41,880 nt of DNA. Source: a virus. This document shows positions 102 to 41,386 of the stretch, piece by piece. The notes under the pieces were generated by a model that saw nothing but the letters and a program-made list of their open reading frames with translations, was not told the DNA's origin and did not search any database. The stretch spans positions 1 to 41,880 of IMG/VR virus record IMGVR_UViG_3300031512_000003; one strand, written 5' to 3'. Position numbers and translations under genes: made by a program. How positions within the stretch are numbered: the first letter of the stretch is position 1; the number at the start of each line of letters is the position of its first letter.

Positions 102-1250
102 TCACACAAAAATATATGCTTTGCCCGCTTTTGTAATTCCACCTGGGGAAGCAAGATACGCACCTACAATTGCTACGTTTCCTGAAATTGAAACAGAGTA
201 GCCGAACCAGTCACTTGCTGCTTTGTCAGAGGCTATCAGAATGGCTTCCTGTATCCATGAGGTTCCATTGTATCTAAAAATGTAAGCTTTGCCCGCTTTT
301 GTAATTCCACCTGGGGAAGCATAATACGCACCTACAATTGTTACATTTCCTGAAATTGAGACAGAGAAGCCGAAATGGTCAGTTGCTGCTTTGTCAGAAG
401 CAGTCAGAATGGCTTCCTGTATCCACGAGGTTCCATTGTATCTAAAAATGTACGCTTTGCCCGCATTTGTAATTCCACCTGGGTCAGCAAGATTCGCACC
501 TACAATTGCTATGTTTCCTGAAATTGAGACAGAGTTGCCAAACCAGTCACTTGCTGCTTTGTCAGAGGCTATCAAAATAGCTTCCTGTATCCATGAGGTT
601 CCATTGTATCTAAAAATGTACGCTTTGCCTGCATCTTCAGTTCCACTTGGGTCAGCCTTATATGCACCTACAATTGCTACGTTTCCTGAAATTGAGACAG
701 AGTTGCCAAAACGGTCATCTGCTGTTTTGTCAGAGGCTATCAAAATAGCTTCCTGTATCCATGAGGTTCCATTGTATCTAAAAATGTAGGCTTTGCCTGC
801 ACGTGTAGTTCCACCTGGGTTAGCCCTATCTGCACCTACAATTGCTACATTTCCTGAAATTGAGACAGAGTTGCCAAACCAGTCACTTGCTGCTTTGTCA
901 GAGGCTATCAAAATAGCTTCCTGTATCCATGAGGTTCCATTGTATCTAAAAATGTACGCTTTGCCTGCATCTGTAGTTCCACCTGGGTCAGCACGACTCG
1001 CACCTACAATTGCTACGTTTCCTGAAATTGAGACAGAGAAGCCGAAGAAGTCATTTGCTGCTTTGTCAGAAGCTATCAAAATAGCTTCCTGTATCCATGA
1101 GGTTCCATTGTATCTAAAAATGTAAGCTTTGCCCGCACGTTCAGTTCCACCTGGGCTAGCATAAAAGGCACCTACAATTGCTACGTTTCCTGAAAGTGAG
1201 ACAGAGTAACCAAAACGGTCATCCGCTGCTTTGTCAGAGGCTGTCAAGAT
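102..1250 (-). repeat. Seven tandem 168-bp repeats encoding propeller blades
   Basis: The same sequence block (for example the segment starting ggcttcctgtatcca on the plus strand) recurs at about 243, 411, 579, 747, 915 and 1083, a strict 168-bp period. Units are close to identical in DNA, with differences concentrated in two short windows per unit: around the FG motif, and in the 8-10 residues after IVGA. The first and last units are more degenerate at their outer ends. Confidence 0.95.
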
Positions 1251-2177
1251 TTGAAACTCACTGTTTGGAATTACATTAACGTTGAAACTCACTACACTTG
1301 ACCATTGTGAATACTTATTATTTGAATCTTTATATCTAACTCTAATATAATATGTATTTTCAGACGGAACTGTAATTTGAATTGAAGTTTTATTAGTTGT
1401 GTCATTCAAACTTTGAAAAACAATGTTTGAAAAAGCAGAATCAGTTGCAACTTGCCAATCAGAAGAAACATGCAGTGAACCAGAAGGAGACGAAAATGGA
1501 GACGAAGTTGCAGTGAATGTAAAATCATTAATAGTCAAGCCTGTAGTTGGATATGTAATTGAGGGTGTTCCTGGTGGAAGAATACTAATAATGAAACTAG
1601 ATGCGTTTGACCATTGTGAATACTTGTTATATGAATCTTTATATCTAACTCTAATATAATATGTATTTTCAGACGAAACTGTAATTTGAATCGAGGTTTT
1701 ATTAGTTGTGTTATTCAAACTTTGAAAAACAATGTTTGAAAAAGCAGAATTAGTTGCAACTTGCCAATCGGAAGAAACATGCAGTGAACCAGAAGGAGAC
1801 GAAAATGGAGAAGAAGTTGCAGTGAATGTAAAGCTATTGATAGTCAAGCCTGTAGTTGGATACGTAATTGAGGGAGTACTAGGAAGTAATAGTACAGGTA
1901 ATGTATATATGTCATACACACCATCAGTATTAATAATAACCACAATAGAATCTCTAACTGCAGTGAGCTTTATGCGTATAGTATCATTTATAACTGTAAT
2001 CTCTACACTTGTATCTGGTGAGTACACTTCATATGTTGAAAAAGTAGAGTAGTTAACAATGGTATAATCAACCCATTCTCCTAACGAACTAATATTTACT
2101 GGTCCATCTAAGATAGTATGATATGATTTGTATTTATACTTTAATGTATATTCATTTTTAAGTAGTAGTGAATGCAT
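102..2177 (-). CDS. Adhesin-like virion protein: FN3-like repeats plus seven-bladed FG-GAP-like propeller
   Basis: A 691-residue protein, probably a receptor-binding or decorating component of the tail or baseplate. Residues 1-97 form a beta-rich N-terminal region. Two nearly identical FN3-like domains of 103 residues follow (about 98-200 and 201-303), each with the motif WQVATxSAFSNIVFQS and ending YIRVRYKDS.NKYSQWS. Residues 309-691 are exactly seven tandem 56-residue units, each with ASDKxAxDxFGxSVS, GNVAIVGA and GKAYIF; the last unit ends at the stop. Seven FG-GAP-type units are the expected number for one closed beta-propeller like that of integrin alpha chains. The canonical calcium-loop DxDxDG is not present. 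The ATG has an AGGT ribosome site. Role in adhesion is inferred from fold, end-of-operon position and repeat structure. Confidence 0.75.
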   Translation of the reverse strand: MHSLLLKNEYTLKYKYKSYHTILDGPVNISSLGEWVDYTIVNYSTFSTYEVYSPDTSVEITVINDTIRIKLTAVRDSIVVIINTDGVYDIYTLPVLLLPSTPSITYPTTGLTINSFTFTATSSPFSSPSGSLHVSSDWQVATNSAFSNIVFQSLNNTTNKTSIQITVSSENTYYIRVRYKDSYNKYSQWSNASSFIISILPPGTPSITYPTTGLTINDFTFTATSSPFSSPSGSLHVSSDWQVATDSAFSNIVFQSLNDTTNKTSIQITVPSENTYYIRVRYKDSNNKYSQWSSVVSFNVNVIPNSEFQILTASDKAADDRFGYSVSLSGNVAIVGAFYASPGGTERAGKAYIFRYNGTSWIQEAILIASDKAANDFFGFSVSISGNVAIVGASRADPGGTTDAGKAYIFRYNGTSWIQEAILIASDKAASDWFGNSVSISGNVAIVGADRANPGGTTRAGKAYIFRYNGTSWIQEAILIASDKTADDRFGNSVSISGNVAIVGAYKADPSGTEDAGKAYIFRYNGTSWIQEAILIASDKAASDWFGNSVSISGNIAIVGANLADPGGITNAGKAYIFRYNGTSWIQEAILTASDKAATDHFGFSVSISGNVTIVGAYYASPGGITKAGKAYIFRYNGTSWIQEAILIASDKAASDWFGYSVSISGNVAIVGAYLASPGGITKAGKAYIFV
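1270..1890 (-). repeat. Tandem duplication of a 309-bp FN3-like module
   Basis: Two copies of about 309 bp lie head to tail (matching landmarks near 1551 and 1860, and near 1423 and 1732). They encode 103-residue FN3-like domains that differ at only a handful of residues, which suggests recent duplication or continuing homogenisation. Confidence 0.9.
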
Positions 2178-2188
2178 AGTACAACCTG

Positions 2189-2851
2189 TTAGTTAAATGT
2201 AAGTGGAATGGAAAGTAGTTGTTCATATGTTTGAGCTGACTTGATTAAAGCCTCTCTCTCAAACTTTTGTTGAATTAAACTAACAATCTTTGCTTCCATT
2301 TCTTGTTTAAGAGCTTGTAGTTGCTCCTTTTCTACAAGTATAAATGAGTTATCATATATTCTAAATAGTATCGTAGATTCTGGATTACTTAATGTGTTAA
2401 TAATACATTGTACATTATATAAAGCAGAATAGCTAAAATCTACATCTGTATTAAGAACTGTAGATGATAGTTTTGGTTTATTTCTACTTATAAAGGTAAA
2501 GGATTCAGGTACTTCTTCAAATATTGCAGGTGTTTCATCACTTGAAGCATTCAAAAAATTAAGTAAGTTTTTCTTAAGTACTTGTATTCGCGCTTGCTTT
2601 TCCTTCTCCAGATCTTGCTCTATTTGAGCAGCTGATTTTTCAACAATATCATACTCAATAATAACAAAGTTACCAAATGGTTCAAAGTACATTCTAGGAA
2701 CTGCTATATGATAAAAATCAACAATTGGTTGTTTTCTATCTACTACTCTAACATAGTCTTTCACATCATGACCACGTGTTTTAATATGTACAAGATATAC
2801 AGGATACTCTACAATCTGTCCATTAACAACTTTTGCATATACTTCTTCCAT
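2189..2851 (-). CDS. Putative tail fibre assembly/fibre-associated protein
   Basis: A 220-residue protein whose N-terminus, YAKVVNGQIVEYPVYL followed by RGHD, resembles the YxKVxNGxVVEYPV opening common in phage tail-fibre-assembly-like proteins (DUF4376 type). Residues about 68-95 and 175-205 are strongly helical and charged (AQIEQDLEKEKQARIQVLKK; KEQLQALKQEMEAKIVSL) and probably form coiled coils. It sits between a fibre gene and the adhesin gene, with a GAGGTG ribosome site. It may act as a chaperone for trimerisation of the neighbouring fibre or adhesin, or be a fibre subunit itself. Family resemblance is by eye only. Confidence 0.5.
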   Translation of the reverse strand: MEEVYAKVVNGQIVEYPVYLVHIKTRGHDVKDYVRVVDRKQPIVDFYHIAVPRMYFEPFGNFVIIEYDIVEKSAAQIEQDLEKEKQARIQVLKKNLLNFLNASSDETPAIFEEVPESFTFISRNKPKLSSTVLNTDVDFSYSALYNVQCIINTLSNPESTILFRIYDNSFILVEKEQLQALKQEMEAKIVSLIQQKFEREALIKSAQTYEQLLSIPLTFN

Positions 2852-2854
2852 ATA

Positions 2855-3235
2855 CTACACCTCAACTCTTGTTATTGTTTCTAGATTTCCGTTAGTATCA
2901 TATGTATATGATATTGTAAGTAATAATGATGTTCCATCTTGGTTATAATATTTTTCTTCTATTAGCTTGTTACTTGTATTATATGTAAATGTAGCTTTAT
3001 GCCCTGTTGCTGCAATAATCTCTGTTATATTACCATATGTATCATATGTAATACTTGTAATAGAAAATGTTTCAAATAATATATCAGGAGGTGCAGCAAA
3101 GCCGCCACCTCCGAACTCTAACCCATCTTCAGTAGCTTTGACAACAAGTGATTTGCCTGCAGAACCAGTATATGAGTGAGGCACATCGCTCAATTCCGTA
3201 AACTTAGTTCGCTTGTTTAAAATAGTTATGGACAT
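2855..3235 (-). CDS. Short tail fibre protein with YD-like repeats
   Basis: A 126-residue protein. The N-terminal third carries the phage fibre signature FTELSDVPHSYTGSAGKSL followed by LVVKATEDGLEF, which in many phages links a fibre shaft to its tip. The C-terminal half has two or three YD-type units (ITYDTYGNITEI, FTYNTSNKLIEE, YTYDTNGNLETI) like the beta-strand repeats of RHS/YD proteins. Start ATG has an AGAAGG site eight bases upstream. Likely a fibre tip or a small homotrimeric tail fibre; ligand unknown. Confidence 0.65.
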   Translation of the reverse strand: MSITILNKRTKFTELSDVPHSYTGSAGKSLVVKATEDGLEFGGGGFAAPPDILFETFSITSITYDTYGNITEIIAATGHKATFTYNTSNKLIEEKYYNQDGTSLLLTISYTYDTNGNLETITRVEV

Positions 3236-3257
3236 ATGTAGTACCTTCTCTTATTCT

Positions 3258-3287
3258 ATTATAATATATAAACAATAGAACATACAA
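3258..3287 (-). promoter_or_regulatory. Candidate sigma-70/A-type promoter before the last fibre genes
   Basis: On the minus strand TTGTAT (3287-3282) is followed after 18 bases by a perfect TATAAT (3263-3258), in the 53-base gap between the membrane protein gene and the fibre gene at 2855-3235. It could drive the fibre, fibre-assembly and adhesin genes separately from the rest of the operon. The -35 box matches consensus only partly and AT-rich DNA yields such matches by chance. Confidence 0.35.
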
Positions 3288-3288
3288 G

Positions 3289-3558
3289 CTAGAATAATAA
3301 GTAGTATCCTACAATACTTCCAAGAAGCCAAAAACATAAATCTCTGATAGAATCCTCAATCTTGTGGTTACCATGAATCCATTGATTAATCTCAACTATA
3401 CAACCTATAAGAAATCCTGCAAACATAGTAGCTATATACCCGTGAGTAAACCAGGCAAGTATGTAACTAACAGCAGCGGCATTAGTAAAATGTACATACT
3501 GATATGAAATTTCTTTTTTGGACCAAAACTCCTTATTTACAAATTTTTTAATATCCAT
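3289..3558 (-). CDS. Small membrane protein, possible holin-like or VanZ/DUF2279-type protein
   Basis: An 89-residue protein with a basic N-terminus (MDIKKFVNKEFWSKKE) and two or three hydrophobic segments (about 25-39, 42-56 and 70-89). Between them is a polar stretch with EINQWIHGNHKIEDSIRDL, followed by WLLGSIVGYY. The E..Q plus D..D plus G...G layout resembles small membrane proteins of the VanZ/YfiM type often found in phage genomes. Size and topology would also fit a holin, but no endolysin is nearby, so this is unproven. The start has a GAGGTGAG site. It is the only clear membrane protein in this structural block. Confidence 0.6.
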   Translation of the reverse strand: MDIKKFVNKEFWSKKEISYQYVHFTNAAAVSYILAWFTHGYIATMFAGFLIGCIVEINQWIHGNHKIEDSIRDLCFWLLGSIVGYYLLF

Positions 3559-3566
3559 AACTCACC

Positions 3567-3881
3567 TCACTCTCTTAGTTTACTTCTAAGTTGTTTTCGT
3601 GTTATTAGTTTCTCCTTTACTTTATCTGGTAAATCTTGAAATGTAATTATGTTCTTACTAATTAAAAGGTCAGCAAGATCTTCTATAACACGAACAATAG
3701 ATAAATCTGTTAACTCAAGCTCAGAAATTGTTTCTAACTTACTAACATCAACCTGGGAAGAAAAAGGTTGTGTGATGTCTAGTGGACAATCAACTTTATA
3801 GATGTTATACTTCCCACCATTCTTATACTCTACCTCATTCATTATGCTGATAATCTGGTCATTTCTTACTTTCACGATCAT
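3567..3881 (-). CDS. Small virion-region protein of unknown function
   Basis: A 104-residue protein. The N-terminal half appears beta-rich. The C-terminal half is helical with VRVIEDLADLLISKN followed by IITFQDLPDKVKEKL and a basic end. This 'V.EDL.DLL..K..ITF.DLP' pattern recurs in small proteins near phage tail-fibre genes, but I know no assigned role. It starts at an ATG with an AAAGAG site and is followed after eight bases by the membrane protein gene. Calling it a real gene is safe; its function is not recognised. Confidence 0.6.
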   Translation of the reverse strand: MIVKVRNDQIISIMNEVEYKNGGKYNIYKVDCPLDITQPFSSQVDVSKLETISELELTDLSIVRVIEDLADLLISKNIITFQDLPDKVKEKLITRKQLRSKLRE

Positions 3882-3884
3882 AAT

Positions 3885-3974
3885 TTACTCTTTCATTAAG
3901 TTTTTCTTGTAACTATATAAATCCAAGCATAGAAAGAGATTTGCAGTGATTGTCATCTGCTGTAGCTTATACAT
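3885..3974 (-). CDS. Possible 29-residue ORF, unknown
   Basis: ATG at 3974-3972 opens a 29-codon frame (MYKLQQMTITANLFLCLDLY, then basic) whose TAA at 3887-3885 ends three bases before the next ATG at 3881. Its start lies one base after the stop of the upstream 43-codon ORF, so the two small frames tile the gap between larger genes exactly. The only ribosome-site candidate, AAAGAG, lies inside an inverted-repeat arm. The evidence is mostly arrangement, so it remains uncertain. Confidence 0.35.
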   Translation of the reverse strand: MYKLQQMTITANLFLCLDLYSYKKNLMKE

Positions 3975-3990
3975 TTTAAAATCTCTTTCT
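3931..3990 (-). repeat. Perfect 12-bp inverted repeat in a small-gene region
   Basis: AGAAAGAGATTT at 3931-3942 is the exact reverse complement of 3979-3990, separated by 36 bases that contain a smaller GCAG/CTGC pair. In the minus-strand RNA it overlaps the end of the 43-codon ORF and encloses the start of the 29-codon ORF. No T-run follows, so a terminator is unlikely; control of translation or RNA stability is possible. Confidence 0.6.
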
Positions 3991-4107
3991 ACATATCACT
4001 TTTCTATCAGATTTACGTAGTATCTCAAGCTTTATAACTGTTTCTAATACAGACTCAACTGGTATTGAAACTGTGGTAAGAAGTTTTATGTCTGGCTTTT
4101 GATTCAT
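3976..4107 (-). CDS. Small 43-residue protein, unknown
   Basis: ATG at 4107-4105 has a very good ribosome site (AAGGAG, six bases upstream: AAGGAGTATATATG) and opens a 43-codon frame beginning MNQKPDIKLLTTVSIPVESV and ending in a basic tail (RKSDRKVICRKRF). The stop TAA is at 3978-3976. No domain is recognised. The strong initiation signal and fit in an otherwise empty 269-base gap support a real gene. Confidence 0.55.
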   Translation of the reverse strand: MNQKPDIKLLTTVSIPVESVLETVIKLEILRKSDRKVICRKRF

Positions 4108-4150
4108 ATATACTCCTTATAATACTATATATTATATCAAAAAATCTTAG

Positions 4151-4432
4151 TTATACAACAATTACATAGTCATAACATGTTGTTATATAATTCTCTACAT
4201 TGAATGTTGCATTATTTTGTATATCTGTGGAATATACATACAAAGGAATAAGTAAACTTGTTACTTTGTACCTAAGACCAAGCTTTTGTACTAGTAGTGT
4301 GAACCAACTTTCTTTTAACTTTACTGTAGAATCTGTAACAGATATCGTATATAGTTGTGGTTCTGTACTTGGTAGAAAACCTTCTAGTGTTTCATTTTCA
4401 TCTATTGTTTTAAATGCATGATAAATAAACAT
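4151..4432 (-). CDS. Small virion-region protein of unknown function
   Basis: A 93-residue protein beginning MFIYHAFKTIDENETLEGF, rich in beta-type segments (LYTISVTDSTVKLKESWFTL; LRYKVTSLLIPLYVYST). It lies in a run of small genes after the large baseplate/fibre gene and 18 bases after the 86-residue gene. The ribosome site (AAAGTGAG) is modest. I do not recognise the family; a small fibre- or baseplate-decorating protein is the contextual guess. Confidence 0.55.
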   Translation of the reverse strand: MFIYHAFKTIDENETLEGFLPSTEPQLYTISVTDSTVKLKESWFTLLVQKLGLRYKVTSLLIPLYVYSTDIQNNATFNVENYITTCYDYVIVV

Positions 4433-4450
4433 AATCTCACTTTTATAATA

Positions 4451-4711
4451 TTAGATAAGTAACCCAGATATAATTACATTTACACTACCTGAAACGGGAG
4501 AGCTAACTTTAACTGTATCTCCTGCCTCTAATATTAGTTTAATAGAAAGTGTGGTAGATAGTGGCATAGAAACACAAACTATATCATTGATTTTCAGTAT
4601 AGTCTCAGCTGAATCATTTGAGCATAAATAAATCTCAGCTATAGCTTTTTTGTTTGCAGGGCATGTAAAAACTGTTGTCTCAGTTGTGATATTGGATGCT
4701 GTAGCTATCAT
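4451..4711 (-). CDS. Small beta-sandwich-like virion protein
   Basis: An 86-residue protein made almost entirely of predicted beta strands: TTETTVFTCPANKKAIAEI, ILKINDIVCVSM, LSIKLILEAGDTVKV and VNVIISGLLI. The order 'VYTCPANKKAxIxxIxLCN' then 'LxAGDxVxV' is typical of small jelly-roll proteins encoded among phage tail-fibre genes. It overlaps no neighbour and starts with a GGAGG site three bases past the stop of the fibre gene at 4715. Probably a virion decoration or fibre-tip module; ligand unknown. Confidence 0.55.
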   Translation of the reverse strand: MIATASNITTETTVFTCPANKKAIAEIYLCSNDSAETILKINDIVCVSMPLSTTLSIKLILEAGDTVKVSSPVSGSVNVIISGLLI

Positions 4712-4714
4712 ATA

Positions 4715-5125
4715 TTATCCTCCAAAGAAAAATGCGATTGCATAAATTGTATCAATAGTATGACCACCAATTTTCTCTGCATTTAAGTTCTGAATCATTT
4801 CTGAAGACGCAATAGTAATTGGTGTAGTAGTTGTATTAGTTAAATGTAATGTTCCTGAAACAGTAATATCGGGTGTTTGTACAGTAGTTAACGCATTTAA
4901 CGTACCTTCAACCTGCATATCTTTCTTAATTGTTGCACCACCCTCAACAACAAGTGCAGTGAGGTTTGTTGTATCAAGTATATGTTTTTTACCTGATAAG
5001 TCAATATCAGAGTTTAACCAGTCATGTAAATTGATACCAGGCTGTCCATACACAGGTAGAAACTTGGTGCTAAGTTCTTGTAATGAAATATTAACATGAA
5101 ATCTTGTTGCAAGTTGTATAGCCAT
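4715..5125 (-). CDS. Short tail-fibre-like protein
   Basis: A 136-residue protein. Residues 1-50 form a distinct N-terminal part containing GQPGINLHDWLNSDIDLSG. Residues about 60-115 look like a repetitive beta shaft (ATIKKDMQVEGTLNALTT, PDITVSGTLHLTN). The segment MIQNLNAEKIGGHTID matches the LNAxKxxGxxxx motif widely found at the end of fibre shafts in tailed phages. The ribosome site is GTAGGAGGTTATT. It probably forms a trimeric fibre or a spike attached to the 948-residue protein encoded just upstream. Confidence 0.65.
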   Translation of the reverse strand: MAIQLATRFHVNISLQELSTKFLPVYGQPGINLHDWLNSDIDLSGKKHILDTTNLTALVVEGGATIKKDMQVEGTLNALTTVQTPDITVSGTLHLTNTTTTPITIASSEMIQNLNAEKIGGHTIDTIYAIAFFFGG

Positions 5126-11383: not shown

Positions 11384-12841
11384 TTACACCCATTCAGTTA
11401 ATGTAATAGTACCTGTAACTGCATATTCTTTAGATGATAGTAATATATCCCCAAATGCAGTTAACGTGCCTCCTCCTACAGGTGTTAGTACACAGCTTGC
11501 AAGATTAATGTTATCTACACCAGAATCTTTGCCAACTGCAGTTACAATATCTGATTTTTCAATCGAACCAGACAACGCATTTTCATCAATAACATTTGCA
11601 ATAATAAGTTCAAGAGAGGATTTATATGAATTAAAATCATACCCTTTTCGTAGTGCTAAAGAAAGTTGTACATTGATTTGAACCTTCGTGAAGCCAAATA
11701 CTAAATAATCCCTGTTAATATAATAATTTTCTTCTGCTTCTAGAGCTTGTTGTATATCGTTAAGTAGCTTGTTATAAATATATAACAATGTTACTGTTTG
11801 TCCGCTTAAGAAAGTACCAAAATTTGTCTGACCTTCAGAAGTTAAAACAAGCTTATCAAACCCCTTTGTAGAGTTTGCTAAAATTCCTGTATCTTTTTGA
11901 AGTGTATAATATGTTGGAGGTAGGGGTACACCATCAACAAGACATGAAATAATAGATAACACCGGTTGTTTACTGAAACGAATTGATGTTGAAGTATATT
12001 GTAGATTTGTAGGATCATTCAAGCCTAGTGTTGTAATCTGTAGTTCTTCTGTGTATGGCTCGGACGTTTCACCGTATACATATATATCAGTACACCCACC
12101 AAATCCCCCATCACGTACCATTAAAGGATGTCCAGAAGGAACAACAATAACAGATTTTGAAAATTGCTTTACAAAAGAAATTAAGCCGGCTTGTGTACCT
12201 AAGTTACGACCTTGAAATTTTTCTCTTACACGGTTCAGTTTAGATGAAACTGATTCTCCATAAGAACCACCTGTAATTGGTGCAGTATTAATACATCCGT
12301 CTATACCTGAGATTGATCCTGTAATTTGTGTAACTGTGTTTGAGCCTGCACTATATTCTGGACCAGCACCAAGTGATTCAACTAATGCTTGTATTTCCCA
12401 CCTATTTGTACTAGAATTAAAAAATGCAGTTTTAGTTGCTGCATAGAGTGTGTATGTTGCAATAACCCTAAACTGTAAAGGTTCTGTACCACCTGTTGAG
12501 ACGAGTGTACCTTCAGGGATTACAATATCTTGAGTTGGTTCTGTGTATGTATAAAATACAACTAAGCCTGTTGATTTTGTTGGTTCATAAGGAGTAACAC
12601 CATAATTTTCACAAAACTCATCTACATCTGCTTCATCCAGTTCATTATAGTAAATAAAGGGTGCGTGTAGTTTATACATATATGTAAGAGATTGGTATAG
12701 ATAATACAATATACCTGCTATTGGAGCTTCTATAAACAAATCTCTTTCAGGAGTACCTTCAGTAAGGTCTAGTTGAGGTAATCTCTGCAAATAAGCAGAG
12801 ATAAGATCAGTACGAATAGAATCAATCGTCTTTTCTAGCAT
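11384..12841 (-). CDS. Baseplate wedge protein, gpJ/gp47 family
   Basis: A 485-residue protein with the layout of the P2 gpJ/Mu gp47/T4 gp6 wedge family: an N-terminal helical region with DLTEGTPERDLFIEAP and AGILYYLYQ, then the G-V-T-P segment VDEFCENYGVTPYEPT, a beta domain with VIPEGTLVST, LGAGPEYSAGSNTVT, and the characteristic GGSYGESVSSKLNRVREKF followed by GTQAGLISFV. The family forms the wedge ring that clamps the hub and triggers sheath contraction. The start overlaps the stop of the gp25-like gene by one base (TAATG), a sign of coupled translation. Length fits the family. Confidence 0.88.
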   Translation of the reverse strand: MLEKTIDSIRTDLISAYLQRLPQLDLTEGTPERDLFIEAPIAGILYYLYQSLTYMYKLHAPFIYYNELDEADVDEFCENYGVTPYEPTKSTGLVVFYTYTEPTQDIVIPEGTLVSTGGTEPLQFRVIATYTLYAATKTAFFNSSTNRWEIQALVESLGAGPEYSAGSNTVTQITGSISGIDGCINTAPITGGSYGESVSSKLNRVREKFQGRNLGTQAGLISFVKQFSKSVIVVPSGHPLMVRDGGFGGCTDIYVYGETSEPYTEELQITTLGLNDPTNLQYTSTSIRFSKQPVLSIISCLVDGVPLPPTYYTLQKDTGILANSTKGFDKLVLTSEGQTNFGTFLSGQTVTLLYIYNKLLNDIQQALEAEENYYINRDYLVFGFTKVQINVQLSLALRKGYDFNSYKSSLELIIANVIDENALSGSIEKSDIVTAVGKDSGVDNINLASCVLTPVGGGTLTAFGDILLSSKEYAVTGTITLTEWV

Positions 12842-26417: not shown

Positions 26418-27196
26418 AGTTTATCCAATGCTTCATTTCTTCTTTTATCTACTTCAACATATGCTGCATAAAGGCTATCTATTACTGATGGTGGAAAGTG
26501 CTCAAGATATCTGCGTAATGCTTTTTTAACTGCAATAATATACGCCATTTGTGTAGAATAATCGGATGCTTTTATTGTATCTTGGAACATTTCATAAATA
26601 GTAACACCATTAATACCTTCCAGCGCATATACAATCTGTGCAAATGCAATAGCAGACAACCTACCTACTGTGCTGTTAATCATATCGTCTACTTCATCAA
26701 GTACTAGTAGCATATCAGATTGGTCTAACGCACGTAAAGTCCACTTCTGCTGATACAGTAAAACATCCTCTTTATACTCACCTTTAGCAATCAAAGACTT
26801 CAAAACATCAAGTGGTTTTTGTAAACCCTGTACAGCAGGTTTTACTTTTTGTAAATCTTCAGTGATTTTCTCTTCAATGATTGATTCTTTGGAAGGACCA
26901 GTATTTGTAACCGTTTGAGAAATACGAGAACGCTGCTGTGCATTAGGCATCTCTACATTTGGATCTTGATGCAAATCAGGTATATTAGGTTGTTGTGTAT
27001 ACGTGTTAAGTTGTTGTGTATACGTGTTAGGTTGTTGTGTATACGTGTTAAGTTGTTGTGTATATGAATTGTCTTGTGCTTGTGCGTGCTGAAAATTTTT
27101 TACTTGATTTTGCAACTGCTGTGCTTGTCTTTCAAGTAACACCTGTTCTACAGGCATGAACTCATCAGATAGATTAGGGTTTGTTATAGGTTTCAT
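26405..27196 (-). CDS. Tail assembly chaperone (gpG-like), zero-frame product
   Basis: A 263-residue protein beginning MKPITNPNLSDEFMPVEQ. I choose the ATG at 27196 because AGGAGGTTACA precedes it; an in-frame ATG at 27223 has no ribosome site. Residues 43-72 hold four 7-residue repeats (TYTQQLN/TYTQQPN). Residues about 125-263 are the helical chaperone domain (KWTLRALDQSDMLLVLDEVD; IAFAQIVYALEGINGV; RRYLEHFPPSVIDSLYAAY). It precedes the tape measure gene, is joined by a frameshift to the next frame, and is probably made in excess over the fusion. It should keep the tape measure soluble and recruit tube subunits. Confidence 0.8.
   Translation of the reverse strand: MKPITNPNLSDEFMPVEQVLLERQAQQLQNQVKNFQHAQAQDNSYTQQLNTYTQQPNTYTQQLNTYTQQPNIPDLHQDPNVEMPNAQQRSRISQTVTNTGPSKESIIEEKITEDLQKVKPAVQGLQKPLDVLKSLIAKGEYKEDVLLYQQKWTLRALDQSDMLLVLDEVDDMINSTVGRLSAIAFAQIVYALEGINGVTIYEMFQDTIKASDYSTQMAYIIAVKKALRRYLEHFPPSVIDSLYAAYVEVDKRRNEALDKLKNS
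26984..27067 (-). repeat. Four tandem 21-bp repeats in the chaperone gene
   Basis: Near-identical 21-bp units (plus strand gttgttgtgtatacgtgtta) encode YTQQLNT/YTQQPNT four times. The Gln/Asn/Thr-rich linker lies between the N-terminal segment and the helical domain. The period keeps frame, so copy number could change without breaking the gene. Confidence 0.9.
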
Positions 27197-27968: not shown

Positions 27969-30269
27969 CTACAGTAATATAGTGTAATATCCTTCAGTAT
28001 ACTTATGCGTATAAACAGCATAGTATGAATACTTAATAACAACTGTATCAGGTTTTTGTGAAGAAACTGCTACATTTATATCCCCAATTGACTCAATAAG
28101 TCTATTGTTAAGGTATGAGATAAAGAGGTTGGATAAGTAACCTTTAATCATTCCAGCATATCCACCTCTATTATAAATCAAAGAACCTCTAAATGTTCTA
28201 TCCATCTGGATAGCAACATCTCTTGCAATATAATCTTTAGCGGTAATGATATTAATGTTATTGCGTTTGACTGTGCTGTTATCGGTTGTCAAATCATCAA
28301 CAACTTTAAACACACCACCTGAAGAAGTAAGCAAGAAGCAACTATCGCTACCAGCTTGCTGTAACATATAATCTGTATAGTAACTATCGTAATCATCTTC
28401 AAATGGTTCTAATCCAGGTACTACACGACCAAGCAATGTTGTTGTTGGACTTGGGAAAGAATCCCTAAAAGCCATTACAGCTGCACCAATGAAAGCACCA
28501 TCAACAACAGTTGTTGCTTGTTGTCCTGTTGTTGGATCTGTATAGTAATATTTTGCACGAGTGGCATTAACAAACACAACCCGTTCACACTTTAATGTTG
28601 TAGCTATTCCACGAAGTGAATTCGGATCTGAGCTATCCCCAACTGGTGTTAAAGCTGGTGCACCTGTCCAAGCCATACGATATCGACCATTATCTGGTAA
28701 ACTGCGTTCAACAACATGTGCTTGTAATGCTGCACGACATAATGGTGAAGAATTAAGTATAGCAACATCTTGTACATCCCTATACTTGATAACATCAAGT
28801 GCATTAATATAATCAGAAATAGTTGCAGTGGGTCTGACCTGAACTATCGCAATTCTTGGAACATTGTAGTTCTTGAGTGCAAGTTTTGCAATCATCACTA
28901 AATCATTTTGTGGTATTTCTTCACCAAGATCATCTAAGACATCCTCAAAAGTCCAGAATTCTTTATATTTCATGAAGTCTGTACTTGGTCTATTAATTTC
29001 ATAAGAAACATAATATGTACCACCAGTTGCAACCTTCGGTGTATTTTGTATTGTAATACTTTGACCTATTTTCAGTAAATCAAGATTGGCAGGATCACCT
29101 GTTATAGTAATAGATGTTCCTCCAACAAGCACTTGTACTTTTATAACAAACATATAGTCAGTACCACTGATATTAGCAACAATCTGTGAACTATTAGCAG
29201 CACGTGCTATTGTTACAGGGGAAGCAAGCCTTAATTCTAACTGACCTGATGTGCTTGTTATTGTCTGACCATTCGTTATTGTAACAGTACTAGAACTTCC
29301 TGGAGTTGTAGCTGAAATCCTAATGTCTCCTCCAACGATTGCAACATTAAATCCATCACTAGATATAGCTGCATTCAGTTTTGAAACTAAATCACTGTAT
29401 GTAGTAGCACCTGTATCTAACATGATGCCATATTGTTTAGAATTGACGTTAATATAGTAAACATTACCTGCTATCAATCCAGAAGAAGTCCCACCTACAA
29501 TACCTGTTAAGCCAAATTCCTGATAAGCACTTGTTGCATCTTGTCCAGCAACTGCTGTTTCAGGTGTTGCACTGAGTGCAGCTAACAAGTCATTTGAAGT
29601 TCCTGCACCTATTGAAACAGTAGAACTTGAACCAGTAGTAGTATTGGTGACACGAATATCTCCACCAACAATAGATACAGCAAAGCTAGTTGATGAAAGT
29701 TGTGTATTAATTGCGTCAACAAGACCTTGATATGTCATTCCACTAGTAACAACCACTGAATAATTTACTTGTGAACCAGATGTAGTACCTATCTTGATTT
29801 CATATGCACCTACAGATAATCCACATCCAGCTGTTCCTACAATACCAGTTAACCCAAATTCCTGATAACCTGATGTTGCATTAGAACCAGGTACACTTGG
29901 ATCAGGTGTTGTACTTAATGCACCAAGTAATCCTGTACCTACAACCCCACCTGTAATAGTGTTACTTTCACTATTCACTAACCATGTAATATCACCAGTT
30001 GTTAAGTTAACTGAGATATCTACACCTTCAATTATGTCATTCAATCCACGTTGTGTTCCGCACTGCAGTATACGATATATACCAGTAGAATACTGCTCAA
30101 GTTTATCAACTGTTCCAGCAACTCTTGTAACACTTTCAAATAAGATTTTCTTATAAGGACTTGCTTTACCTATAAAACATGGTTTTCGCTGGGTGCTAGT
30201 TGGATTCGGTGCACCAGGTATCTCTATTTCCTCAATAACAGTCCCAGGTAATCTATAACCTAATGCCAT
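27969..30269 (-). CDS. Contractile tail sheath protein with duplicated insertion domain
   Basis: A 766-residue sheath protein. The start MALGYRLPGTVIEEIEIPGA is typical of phage sheaths (exposed N-terminal strand that links to the neighbour subunit). The C-terminal half has IAIVQVRPTATISDYINALD, DVAILNSSPLCRAALQAHV, a surface region, then DDLTTDNSTVKRNNINIITA (sheath C-terminal linking domain), RDVAIQMDRTFRGS and VVIKYSYYAVY. Residues about 113-336 are an insertion of two about 113-residue repeats. The protein is longer than common 400-650 residue sheaths because of this insertion. It pairs with the tube gene 14 bases downstream. AGGAGATAAAAT precedes the ATG. Confidence 0.9.
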   Translation of the reverse strand: MALGYRLPGTVIEEIEIPGAPNPTSTQRKPCFIGKASPYKKILFESVTRVAGTVDKLEQYSTGIYRILQCGTQRGLNDIIEGVDISVNLTTGDITWLVNSESNTITGGVVGTGLLGALSTTPDPSVPGSNATSGYQEFGLTGIVGTAGCGLSVGAYEIKIGTTSGSQVNYSVVVTSGMTYQGLVDAINTQLSSTSFAVSIVGGDIRVTNTTTGSSSTVSIGAGTSNDLLAALSATPETAVAGQDATSAYQEFGLTGIVGGTSSGLIAGNVYYINVNSKQYGIMLDTGATTYSDLVSKLNAAISSDGFNVAIVGGDIRISATTPGSSSTVTITNGQTITSTSGQLELRLASPVTIARAANSSQIVANISGTDYMFVIKVQVLVGGTSITITGDPANLDLLKIGQSITIQNTPKVATGGTYYVSYEINRPSTDFMKYKEFWTFEDVLDDLGEEIPQNDLVMIAKLALKNYNVPRIAIVQVRPTATISDYINALDVIKYRDVQDVAILNSSPLCRAALQAHVVERSLPDNGRYRMAWTGAPALTPVGDSSDPNSLRGIATTLKCERVVFVNATRAKYYYTDPTTGQQATTVVDGAFIGAAVMAFRDSFPSPTTTLLGRVVPGLEPFEDDYDSYYTDYMLQQAGSDSCFLLTSSGGVFKVVDDLTTDNSTVKRNNINIITAKDYIARDVAIQMDRTFRGSLIYNRGGYAGMIKGYLSNLFISYLNNRLIESIGDINVAVSSQKPDTVVIKYSYYAVYTHKYTEGYYTILL
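29262..29933 (-). repeat. Duplicated 339-bp module in the sheath gene
   Basis: Two 113-residue units share ATSxYQEFGLTGIVG, a beta hairpin, a helix (LVDAINTQL / LVSKLNAAI), VGGDIRVT/VGGDIRIS and TGSSSTVSI/PGSSSTVTI. The strand-helix-strand pattern 'TYxxLVxxINxxxxSxxFxVxIVGGDIRI' resembles the flagellin hook IN motif. Expected to project from the outer surface of the sheath. Confidence 0.8.
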
Positions 30270-35654: not shown

Positions 35655-35717
35655 AGTATTCACCTCATTATAGTTTATAATATAGTTGAAAAAATAATAG
35701 AATACTAGAAGTATTTA

Positions 35718-36221
35718 TTAAGAAAGGAAATCAATCTTTACAGTGGAATTTTCTCTGTATAAAACAGAGCCATTGTTTGAAAAAATATGTTGTATATCTT
35801 TTAACAAGGTCTGTTTACTAGGTAAACAGTTAACATAATGCATTACTCTATAACCTGCTTTAACTAACCGCTTATCCCTTTCATTATCATGTTCTTGTGT
35901 ATGAAAATAAGAACCATCATACTCAATAACAAGTTTCATACTTTCAACTAGAATATCAGGATTTAAAGCACGACCTGAATCAACAACAAGTGATGATCCT
36001 GTAGTAGCATCTGAATAAATACTTTTAACAATCTTAAAAAGCAGTTGTTCTTTAGTAGAATACTTACGAGAACCTAATGTAGTAGCTGCTTTTTTCATAA
36101 GCTTACTTTTACAGGTTCTACAAATGTTTGTAACAGATTCTCTCATATTGTTTTTTGAGTTACCAACTTTAGTAACAAAAAGATCTTCTGTTGTGCCACA
36201 ATATTTGCATTTATGAATCAT
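35718..36221 (-). CDS. Vsr-like homing-type endonuclease with zinc ribbon
   Basis: A 167-residue protein. Residues 1-45 contain two Cys pairs, CKYCG and CRTC, consistent with a zinc ribbon. Residues about 85-150 hold the nuclease core: NPDILVESMKLVIEYDGSYF, then HTQEHDNERDKRLVKAGYRV, followed by MHYVN. This D...E-x-D...H...RD..L...G.RV order is that of Vsr/DUF559-type PD-(D/E)XK-related nucleases, the fold of phage EDxHD homing endonucleases such as I-Bth0305I. It would cut double-stranded DNA at a specific site. It overlaps the upstream gene by four bases (ATGA) and looks like a recent insertion among head genes. Confidence 0.75.
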   Translation of the reverse strand: MIHKCKYCGTTEDLFVTKVGNSKNNMRESVTNICRTCKSKLMKKAATTLGSRKYSTKEQLLFKIVKSIYSDATTGSSLVVDSGRALNPDILVESMKLVIEYDGSYFHTQEHDNERDKRLVKAGYRVMHYVNCLPSKQTLLKDIQHIFSNNGSVLYRENSTVKIDFLS

Positions 36222-37147
36222 AGCGGTGTATAACCTCTGCTAAAGAAACCTACTAGCGTATTCATAGGCAATACACCATGTTCTTGTATCATATTTGTTG
36301 CAGCACCGATAATACCTAAAGCAGCAAAAGGTACAGTACCAACACCTACACCATAAGAATTAACACAATCCCACTTAACAAGGTCTTTCTGTTTTGCATA
36401 CTCAGCAAGTAGTGTATCATGCCAACCCTTAACATGAGAAGCTCTATCATATGTAATCTGTAACCCAGAATCGGAAGCTGTAAAGTGTATATCCACCTCT
36501 AAGATGCCCCAAGAAATAAGGGCTCGTATAAGCGCACCTTGTATTATTAGATCAAACATCTTGTAAGGTACACCATTATAAAAGGAGTAAGGATTAGTGT
36601 ATAAAGTCTCCTCTTGTACACTTGTAAAATACCAATAATATGTACTTGCAGGGGGATGAATGTTTATCTCAACTAACGCTCCTTCAATAAATTGCATGAG
36701 TTCATCTACTGAAAATTTCTTATCAAAACCTCCTGCGAAAGAAACTACACCACCTTGACCCACACCATCTGTATCAGAAATAACACTACCTGGATTTGGT
36801 AATCTACGTCTCACAAGATCTAATCGTGTTAGAAGTGATTGCAATATCTCATATTCCATAAAAGTTAAAACTTTAAATCCCCTATCTCTCAACACAAGAT
36901 AATCTGATATAGGTGTTGTGTATGAAGGAAATAAACAAGAATTCGTAGCTTTAAAAACAACAGTATCAAGTGTAGTGTCTAATTCACTTAATGATCGCCA
37001 CGTAATATAATCTGGTAACTGAGATTGAGCCTCTTCAGGATATGTATCATATAGTATATATGCTACCTTATCTACACTATCTAACTCAATACTCTTGAAA
37101 ATAATTCCAGTTGTTTCTTTAGACACAATATCAAGCAACCGTATCAT
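36218..37147 (-). CDS. Putative head-tail connector/head-region protein
   Basis: A 309-residue protein. The ATG at 37147 is preferred because AAAGGTGTTGTGT precedes it; a GTG at 37156 in the same frame overlaps that ribosome site. It contains WRSLSELDTTLDTVVFKATN, YWYFTSVQEETLYTNPYSFY and VPYKMFDLIIQGALIRALI, plus GVGTVPFAALGIIGAATN near the end. No enzymatic motif is visible. Its place shortly after the capsid gene and before neck genes favours an adaptor or minor capsid protein. Family not recognised. Confidence 0.5.
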   Translation of the reverse strand: MIRLLDIVSKETTGIIFKSIELDSVDKVAYILYDTYPEEAQSQLPDYITWRSLSELDTTLDTVVFKATNSCLFPSYTTPISDYLVLRDRGFKVLTFMEYEILQSLLTRLDLVRRRLPNPGSVISDTDGVGQGGVVSFAGGFDKKFSVDELMQFIEGALVEINIHPPASTYYWYFTSVQEETLYTNPYSFYNGVPYKMFDLIIQGALIRALISWGILEVDIHFTASDSGLQITYDRASHVKGWHDTLLAEYAKQKDLVKWDCVNSYGVGVGTVPFAALGIIGAATNMIQEHGVLPMNTLVGFFSRGYTPL

Positions 37148-40036: not shown

Positions 40037-41386
40037 TTACTTACTTAAATTTTCCATCTGGTATGCACGCCAGAAGTCTGCATATAATTTTCTTGAGTCA
40101 TCTTTCTTATCAGAAGGAGTTCCTCTTAAAGGAACAGATGCTTGTTTTACTTTAACATCACTTTCTTCTTTTCTAGGTTCTGCATTCTTTGATACCAGCT
40201 GAGAACCATCATACGCTTTTACAAACTTAACAATCTCACCAAACTTGTTGAGATCTTGATGATATAAGAAGTCAAATGCTTCTTTGATAACATTTACCTG
40301 GCTATCCTCATAACCTTTCAAGAAAGCATTATGTACAATAGCATCAGCAACATCTGCAGATACATTTAATGTAGAAGTAATCTCTTCAATTAATGCATCC
40401 TTCAGAGGATTAGGAATAAGCCCTTTTAGTTGCTGCTGACAAGCTAAAGAAGTTGCAAGCCTAGCTTTCATTAAGGAAGCTTTAACAGCTCTCTTAATAG
40501 CATCAGCTGCATACTGTTCGTCTGTTGCACTTGCTTTTTTAGGTTTTGGAAACTTAGCTTTGAATTCAGAAATATCTGTCCTCTTACCCAATGAAATAGG
40601 AGAATTTTCATCTGGTAAATTATCCCCGGTACCTTTTAATGGAGCTACTTCTTTATTGTTAAGCTTAGTATCCTGTTTCTGTGTACAAAGGTCTTTCCAA
40701 GAACCATACAACTGACCTTCTTTTTTCTGTTCCATCCTATTTTGCCTAAGTGCAGCTAACCTTTCTCTCAATCTAGATATAGTTTCTTCTCTTGAAGATT
40801 TTTCTTGTAGCTTTCTCGTAGGCTCTTCTTTTAAAGGAGCTTCTTTACCTTCCTCTTTTTTACCTTTTTCTTCTTTCTCTTTACCTTTTTCTTCTTTCTC
40901 TTTACCTTTTTCTTCTTTCTCTTTACCTTTCTCAAGCATTTTACTTTCAGATTCTAAGGCTTTATTACCTTCTTCTAAAAAGTTGTTTCCTTCCTCAATT
41001 GCATTATCAATATCTGAAAGTTCATCAACAGAAAGGTTTTTCTGATTCTGATCTCTAAAGGAAACACCTTGGCTAACAGCTTCAAGTACCTGGTTTAACA
41101 AATCTTTTACAGTTTCAAGTTGCTGTTGAATATCAGAATCCGAAGGTTTCGGTTCATCTAAGAATTTTAATGCACCAAGATCTTCATTAGCTGAACCATC
41201 ACTTACTTCATCTACTGCCCCTTTTGCTTTTTTTAAGTTTGTAAAAAAAGCATGTTTTACTTTCATCTGTGCAAGTTTTCTAAAACCTGACTTTGCTTGA
41301 TGTACAGAACCTTTGATTTGATTAACAACATTCTGTGATGTTAAAGAAGCAGTTGAGATAACACCATCTTGAATTTTAATGTCCAT
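40037..41386 (-). CDS. Nested in-frame scaffold-like protein (internal start)
   Basis: Inside the larger frame an ATG at 41386 is preceded by TAAGGAGAGACAT, a ribosome site as good as those of stand-alone genes here. It would give a 449-residue protein beginning MDIKIQDGVISTASL and sharing its C-terminus with the longer product. This arrangement matches lambda C/Nu3 and similar pairs, where a full-length head protein carries the scaffold domain and an internal start makes free scaffold. Both products are plausible; which is used is unproven. Confidence 0.6.
   Translation of the reverse strand: MDIKIQDGVISTASLTSQNVVNQIKGSVHQAKSGFRKLAQMKVKHAFFTNLKKAKGAVDEVSDGSANEDLGALKFLDEPKPSDSDIQQQLETVKDLLNQVLEAVSQGVSFRDQNQKNLSVDELSDIDNAIEEGNNFLEEGNKALESESKMLEKGKEKEEKGKEKEEKGKEKEEKGKKEEGKEAPLKEEPTRKLQEKSSREETISRLRERLAALRQNRMEQKKEGQLYGSWKDLCTQKQDTKLNNKEVAPLKGTGDNLPDENSPISLGKRTDISEFKAKFPKPKKASATDEQYAADAIKRAVKASLMKARLATSLACQQQLKGLIPNPLKDALIEEITSTLNVSADVADAIVHNAFLKGYEDSQVNVIKEAFDFLYHQDLNKFGEIVKFVKAYDGSQLVSKNAEPRKEESDVKVKQASVPLRGTPSDKKDDSRKLYADFWRAYQMENLSK

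Follow-up and report, generated by a model that had tools for sequence, protein, structure and literature searches.

The window, the whole stretch of viral DNA analysed here (41,880 nucleotides; 41.9 kb from IMG/VR), carries on its minus strand a gene (2177..102) for a protein of 691 amino acids. The open reading frame and Pfam matches divided this protein into an N-terminal domain, two FN3-like repeats and seven FG-GAP_2 blades; all features of the gene given below are on the minus strand. The N-terminal domain (residues 1-100; 1878..2177) is a putative anchor. It is 30% identical to the N-terminal domain of a related gene on another contig, G001, and the PHROG search of these residues returned no match. 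Two copies of a 103-aa (309-bp) tandem FN3-like repeat follow. Repeat 1 (residues 101-203; 1569..1877) has 89% DNA identity to repeat 2 (residues 204-306; 1260..1568), which has 94% DNA identity to the single FN3 copy in G001, and the region of repeat 2 matched the minor tail protein family phrog_5287 (E 4.6e-15). The seven-unit array comprises residues 310-691 (1250..105), and the stop codon is at 104-102. In a Pfam profile search, PF14312 (FG-GAP_2) matched seven stretches of the protein, with a whole-protein E of 7.7e-120 and 391 bits against a curated cut-off of 23. The preliminary description of this locus, made from the letters of the window, concerned the array; the N-terminal domain and the two FN3-like repeats were absent from it.

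The window contains contractile-tail genes, a sheath-like gene and a baseplate wedge gene, and also a gene for the major head protein. The baseplate wedge (J-like) gene (11384..12841, minus; phrog_6, E 1.8e-35) belongs to the same strand and module as the propeller gene. Three genes upstream of the propeller gene (within 2189..5125, minus; 220, 126 and 136 aa) gave weak tail or tail-fibre matches in Pfam and PHROG: DUF4376 at E 0.003, which is under the Pfam cut-off, the tail protein family phrog_11660 at E 2e-5, and the tail fiber family phrog_4549 at E 1e-3. The head and baseplate proteins matched Virus Rctr197k and Bacillus phage G. For the 948-aa neighbour, a strict scan of IMG/VR found no close relatives. 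Other repeats were also seen in the window. The sheath-like protein (27969-30269, minus) has an internal duplication, with two segments of SAYQEFGLTGIVG-like sequence read from the translation, and 21-bp tandem repeats in two other genes (40859-40930; 26985-27064) give KEKEEKG and NTYTQQ-type peptide repeats.

The units of the array lie at 1083..1250 (unit 1), 915..1082 (unit 2), 747..914 (unit 3), 579..746 (unit 4), 411..578 (unit 5), 243..410 (unit 6) and 102..242 (unit 7), the last of which ends in KAYIFV and the stop codon and is without an outer strand. The start-to-start distance is exactly 56 residues throughout, and Tandem Repeats Finder reported a period of 168 with 6.8 copies at 108-1247. 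Together with the seven Pfam matches, these results confirmed the count of exactly seven 56-residue units that had been made from the sequence. The units had also been called near-identical. High similarity was indeed found, and the term needs a number: pairwise DNA identity is 78-91%, with a mean of 87.3% over HMM-aligned columns. Codons 43-55 are the same in units 1-6 except for a single silent substitution at codon 51. The unit positions at which the units show three or more amino acids are 10, 12, 15, 29, 30, 32 and 38. All seven of these codons fall inside codons 8-16 or 28-39, the first window flanking FG and the second following IVGA (hypergeometric p 0.003, with windows drawn after the data had been seen), so that the two variable windows per unit proposed earlier were borne out. 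Six of the seven also belong to the set of seven most variable sites in other arrays (p 6e-6).

The units are mosaic across the two variable windows. Units 3 and 5 are identical in DNA at codons 8-16 and have 10 base differences at codons 28-39, and units 6 and 7 have 2 base differences at codons 28-39 and 5 at codons 8-16. Distances in the two windows were uncorrelated (rho 0.13). The blade count itself rests on a single assembly, because the longest exact repeat inside the array is 123 bp and because the only other contig found of the same phage, G003, covers 10301-41880 of the window at 99.85% identity and does not include the array. These two facts would also fit an array mis-assembled from repeats of several loci. 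We regard such an artefact as highly improbable, since the unit count equals the family norm of seven and each unit carries its own loop residues.

For structure prediction, AlphaFold2 was given the window propeller together with 48 seven-unit relatives from viral contigs (49 sequences). The model is a seven-blade propeller with a mean pLDDT of 94.3 and a pTM of 0.93; a single-sequence AlphaFold2 run of the whole protein was set aside (pLDDT 38). The PDB structures closest to the model are integrin alpha chains (Foldseek E 3.5e-20; VIA-align Z 39-43), and the best VIA-align match was 3v4v_C (Z 42.7, 2.7 A over 352 residues). At the sequence level, phmmer with the propeller against PDB sequences gave no match, and the integrin matches of the A1 profile were all weak. 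The seven-bladed, FG-GAP-like propeller of the preliminary description is thus supported by the model and by its nearest structures.

Each blade of the model has four strands, in unit numbering A (16-20), B (23-28), C (40-47) and D (52-56, continuing into residues 1-2 of the next unit). Sites 10, 12 and 15 are in the D-A loop and sites 29, 30, 37 and 38 are in the B-C loop; the A-B and C-D loops have zero amino-acid changes among the units. In a four-strand meander, the D-A and B-C loops share one face of the propeller, and the A-B and C-D loops are on the other. The variable residues, which had been expected on equivalent loops, therefore map to a single predicted face: by topology, about seven hypervariable residues per blade, 49 in total, make one variable face of the model, while the strands and the opposite loops are constant. 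The share of aromatic residues is 0.29 at the variable sites versus 0.10 in the framework. A strand at model positions 4-8, corresponding to EFQIL (residues 307-311; 1245..1259), is located ahead of blade 1, and the last unit lacks the outer strand D. EFQIL probably completes blade 7 as its outer strand, in a velcro closure; this pairing is proposed because the last unit lacks strand D and by analogy with integrin-type propellers (PMC3192720). The calcium-binding motif DxDxDG is absent, and the A-B (1-2) loop is SGN in 7/7 units.

By family, the window protein is an FG-GAP_2 integrin-type propeller minus the calcium motif. It shares with bacterial FG-GAP_2/integrin-alpha-type propellers the repeat profile, the seven blades, the strand before blade 1, the last blade that is one strand short, and the FG and GA motifs at one blade end (PMC3192720). 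Integrin blades carry their FG-GAP segments at one end and their calcium-binding loops at the other (PMC3192720). Unlike the integrin-alpha-type propellers described there, the window protein is phage-encoded and has SGN in place of DxDxDG.

Selection on the loops was measured at seven test sites per blade, which were predefined from other arrays and then applied to the window array. Nonsynonymous difference at these sites (pN 0.53) was far above silent difference in the framework (pS 0.17), the framework pN was 0.04, and dN/dS was about 4.6. The bootstrap interval for pN minus pS was 0.23-0.48; the bootstrap was taken over the columns of one array, in which unit pairs are not independent, and therefore such intervals are a guide and not a formal test, and codon bias could lower pS. 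The four-unit array of G001 gave a similar result (pN 0.47 versus pS 0.16). In the majority of the homogeneous arrays examined from viruses and bacteria, pN also exceeded pS; the intervals of L022 (four units) and L217 include zero. The earlier reading of a homogeneous framework with diversified loops was therefore borne out, with loop change exceeding the silent rate.

Those values bear on the simplest account of the array, in which blades were recently amplified and the loops differ solely because constraint on them is missing. Amplification has precedent: according to PMC9218822, highly repetitive beta-propellers were amplified from single blades, continuously and in all major lineages, including FG-GAP/alpha-integrin members in bacteria and archaea, and the high identity between blades in the window array is like theirs. 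In the main text of PMC9218822 the words phage, gene conversion and positive selection do not appear, and no fixed set of diversified sites was met with in the passages covered. Codons free of constraint would be expected to change about as fast as silent sites do. Because pN at the sites is 0.53 and framework pS is 0.17, a roughly threefold excess whose bootstrap interval excludes zero, relaxed constraint alone is insufficient for the variable sites, and the same direction in most homogeneous arrays examined argues against it as well. We consider this account improbable.

A diversity-generating retroelement, or a similar targeted mutagenesis, could also write the loop codons. At several variable codons the third base is fixed in 11/11 units of the two arrays (NNT at codons 10 and 29; NNC at codons 15 and 32), a pattern that AAY codons would take on if their adenines were mutagenised, but fixed third bases are also expected under selected amino-acid change. 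In codons 12, 30 and 38 the third base is variable, and adenines within the variable windows are invariant in GAC at codon 11 and GGA at codon 35. No match to a reverse transcriptase was found in the four contigs, all of which are fragments. Since the substitutions do not follow adenines, retroelement writing is disfavoured, and we give it very little credence.

The related protein was found on two contigs, G001 and G002 (36.4 kb identical), and has a different N-terminal anchor, followed by a single FN3 repeat and four blades. It is intact in G001 (35701-36990; 429 aa), and the G002 copy is cut by the contig end. The break of G002 inside FN3 was considered as a sign of both arrays in one sample; this was dropped, as no 21-mer at the break is common with the window. 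Along the gene, identity between the window and G001 rises from about 30-57% to 93% at the FN3 start and is lost after the stop codon; within the FN3+propeller module, DNA identity is 87-95%. Because the modules are this similar while the anchors are 30% identical, and because the G001 copy has one FN3 and four blades, these sequences suggest that the FN3+propeller module moves as a cassette between N-terminal anchors.

As a metagenomic variant, the G001 array agrees with the expectation of diversified loops: it shares the framework of the window array and differs from it in loop residues and in blade number (four versus seven). The units of the two arrays differ about as much from each other as units do inside each array, with a pS of 0.21 between the arrays and of 0.20 and 0.18 within them. 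The four blades of the G001 copy are too few by themselves for a canonical ring; a dimer of it would be in keeping with WD40 fragments of four blades, which form eight-blade assemblies (PMC6805158). The gene content of the two contigs is complementary, structural in the window and replicative in G001, as would suit two parts of one phage, but the G001 terminase and helicase have best-listed phages other than Virus Rctr197k and Bacillus phage G. Two further G001 genes were recorded. One (L012:4253-8134, minus) encodes a 1293-aa protein in which a uracil-DNA-glycosylase domain is joined to a 3'-5' exonuclease and to a family A DNA polymerase that an intein-like segment interrupts. The other (L011:11807-12877, minus) encodes a Tubulin/FtsZ-family protein (Pfam E 2e-17), for which tblastn gave no match in the isolate-phage collection.

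To place the array within its family, FG-GAP_2 repeats were surveyed in viruses and bacteria. Strict scans of genome contigs found no close relatives. FG-GAP propellers had been described as uncommon in phages. This holds for isolates, in which 20 of 50,697 records match, but one strict degenerate pattern found 92 stretches in IMG/VR viral contigs, some of them probably from algal giant viruses. BFVD matches of the viral arrays include giant viruses, and the surveyed viral arrays are not all phage. With the degenerate pattern, at least 114 stretches were found in bacterial genomes. Viral arrays have 7, 14 or 21 units, and nearly all other counts are cut by the locus end; L002 and L026 are uncut exceptions with four units. 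L026:2236-3042 is a second uncut viral ORF with four FG-GAP_2 units only. Among the bacterial matches listed, 60 of 110 arrays have seven units.

Within-array difference is highest at the same seven columns in the viral set and, among the matches listed, in the bacterial set (0.81-0.88), and the neighbouring column, unit position 9, is also high in both (0.75-0.78, the bacterial value again among the matches listed). Few viral arrays are as homogeneous as that of the window: its mean DNA identity is 0.873, and the top value, 0.876, belongs to the array of G001. Bacterial arrays reach 0.867 among the matches listed. Loop diversification, which had been presented as a feature of the window gene, is thus present there and not special to it, as the same sites vary in other viral and bacterial arrays. 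Because seven (or 14, or 21) blades are the norm and variation in other FG-GAP_2 arrays of viruses and bacteria peaks at these same sites, we place the window array within a family-wide pattern, of which it is an extreme case, resembling the fungal hnwd WD40 propellers.

We think it reasonably likely that, in a contractile-tailed phage, the gene encodes a binding protein associated with the virion or tail, built from an anchor, an FN3 stalk and a C-terminal integrin-type FG-GAP_2 propeller with a diversified face. A receptor-binding role is hinted at by the tail context and by weak matches to tail proteins, and the pattern of change suggests a fast-changing surface for gripping the host. The partner of the variable face would be a glycan or protein on the host surface that itself varies. 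Blades would have been amplified from one another, unequal crossing-over or gene conversion may keep the framework DNA alike, and selection would favour new residues on the variable face. Recombination as the homogenising process is what the mosaicism of the units and the cassette boundary point to; in such a scheme the FN3+propeller module may pass between N-terminal anchors, and the blade number can change.

The propeller could instead be a virion part or a moron-encoded protein that binds no receptor, and its variable face would then track another partner. Genomic context lends this some weight. The related G001 gene adjoins a ribonucleotide reductase gene, not tail genes, and FG-GAP genes of isolate phages are surrounded by metabolic or hypothetical genes. 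Two tailed phages, Vibrio phage nt-1 and cyanophage S-TIM5, have an FG-GAP repeat region like that of the window (35% and 32% identity), but their genes have a different genomic context, away from obvious tail modules, and the S-TIM5 gene is annotated 'virion structural protein and packaging', a label that is silent on receptor binding. Because of the G001, nt-1 and S-TIM5 locations, the term tail adhesin is not certain for this protein. Against a non-receptor role, the window gene comes after baseplate and tail-fibre-like genes on the same strand, and aromatic and polar residues abound on its diversified face. We judge that role unlikely and retain the binding protein as our reading of the gene.

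The nearest way of working to the window array, by analogy, is the Podospora hnwd family, in which the repeats undergo concerted evolution and positive selection acts on four codons of each, in surface loops atop the propeller (PMC2873952). The window array is like the het-d/het-e/hnwd WD40 propellers in its homogenised framework and in having few diversified codons per blade, in surface loops on one face (PMC2873952), and it has the hnwd-like property that amino-acid change at a small number of equivalent loop sites exceeds silent change in the framework. It is unlike them in that blade family and organism are unrelated and in that about seven positions are concerned here versus four selected positions there (PMC2873952). 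The repeats of het-d/het-e/hnwd are unstable, and rearrangement was observed in them (PMC2873952), whereas in the window array we only infer it.

In the literature searched, which left subscription journals and preprints mostly outside, no description of such a pattern was found for phage FG-GAP repeats. As a wider and more tentative idea, to which we give somewhat less than even chances, FG-GAP_2 propellers of phages and bacteria may be a general variable-receptor scaffold, with one face of about 49 positions under diversifying selection, a framework homogenised by recombination and an FN3+propeller module passed between anchors, as a prokaryotic counterpart of fungal hnwd. If the family-wide pattern is true, the seven sites per blade would mark the binding face of FG-GAP_2 propellers in phages and bacteria straight from sequence, and would yield a map of host recognition that can be tested at the level of residues. 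FG-GAP_2 would also become a second blade family, outside fungi, that pairs a homogenised framework with a diversified propeller face.
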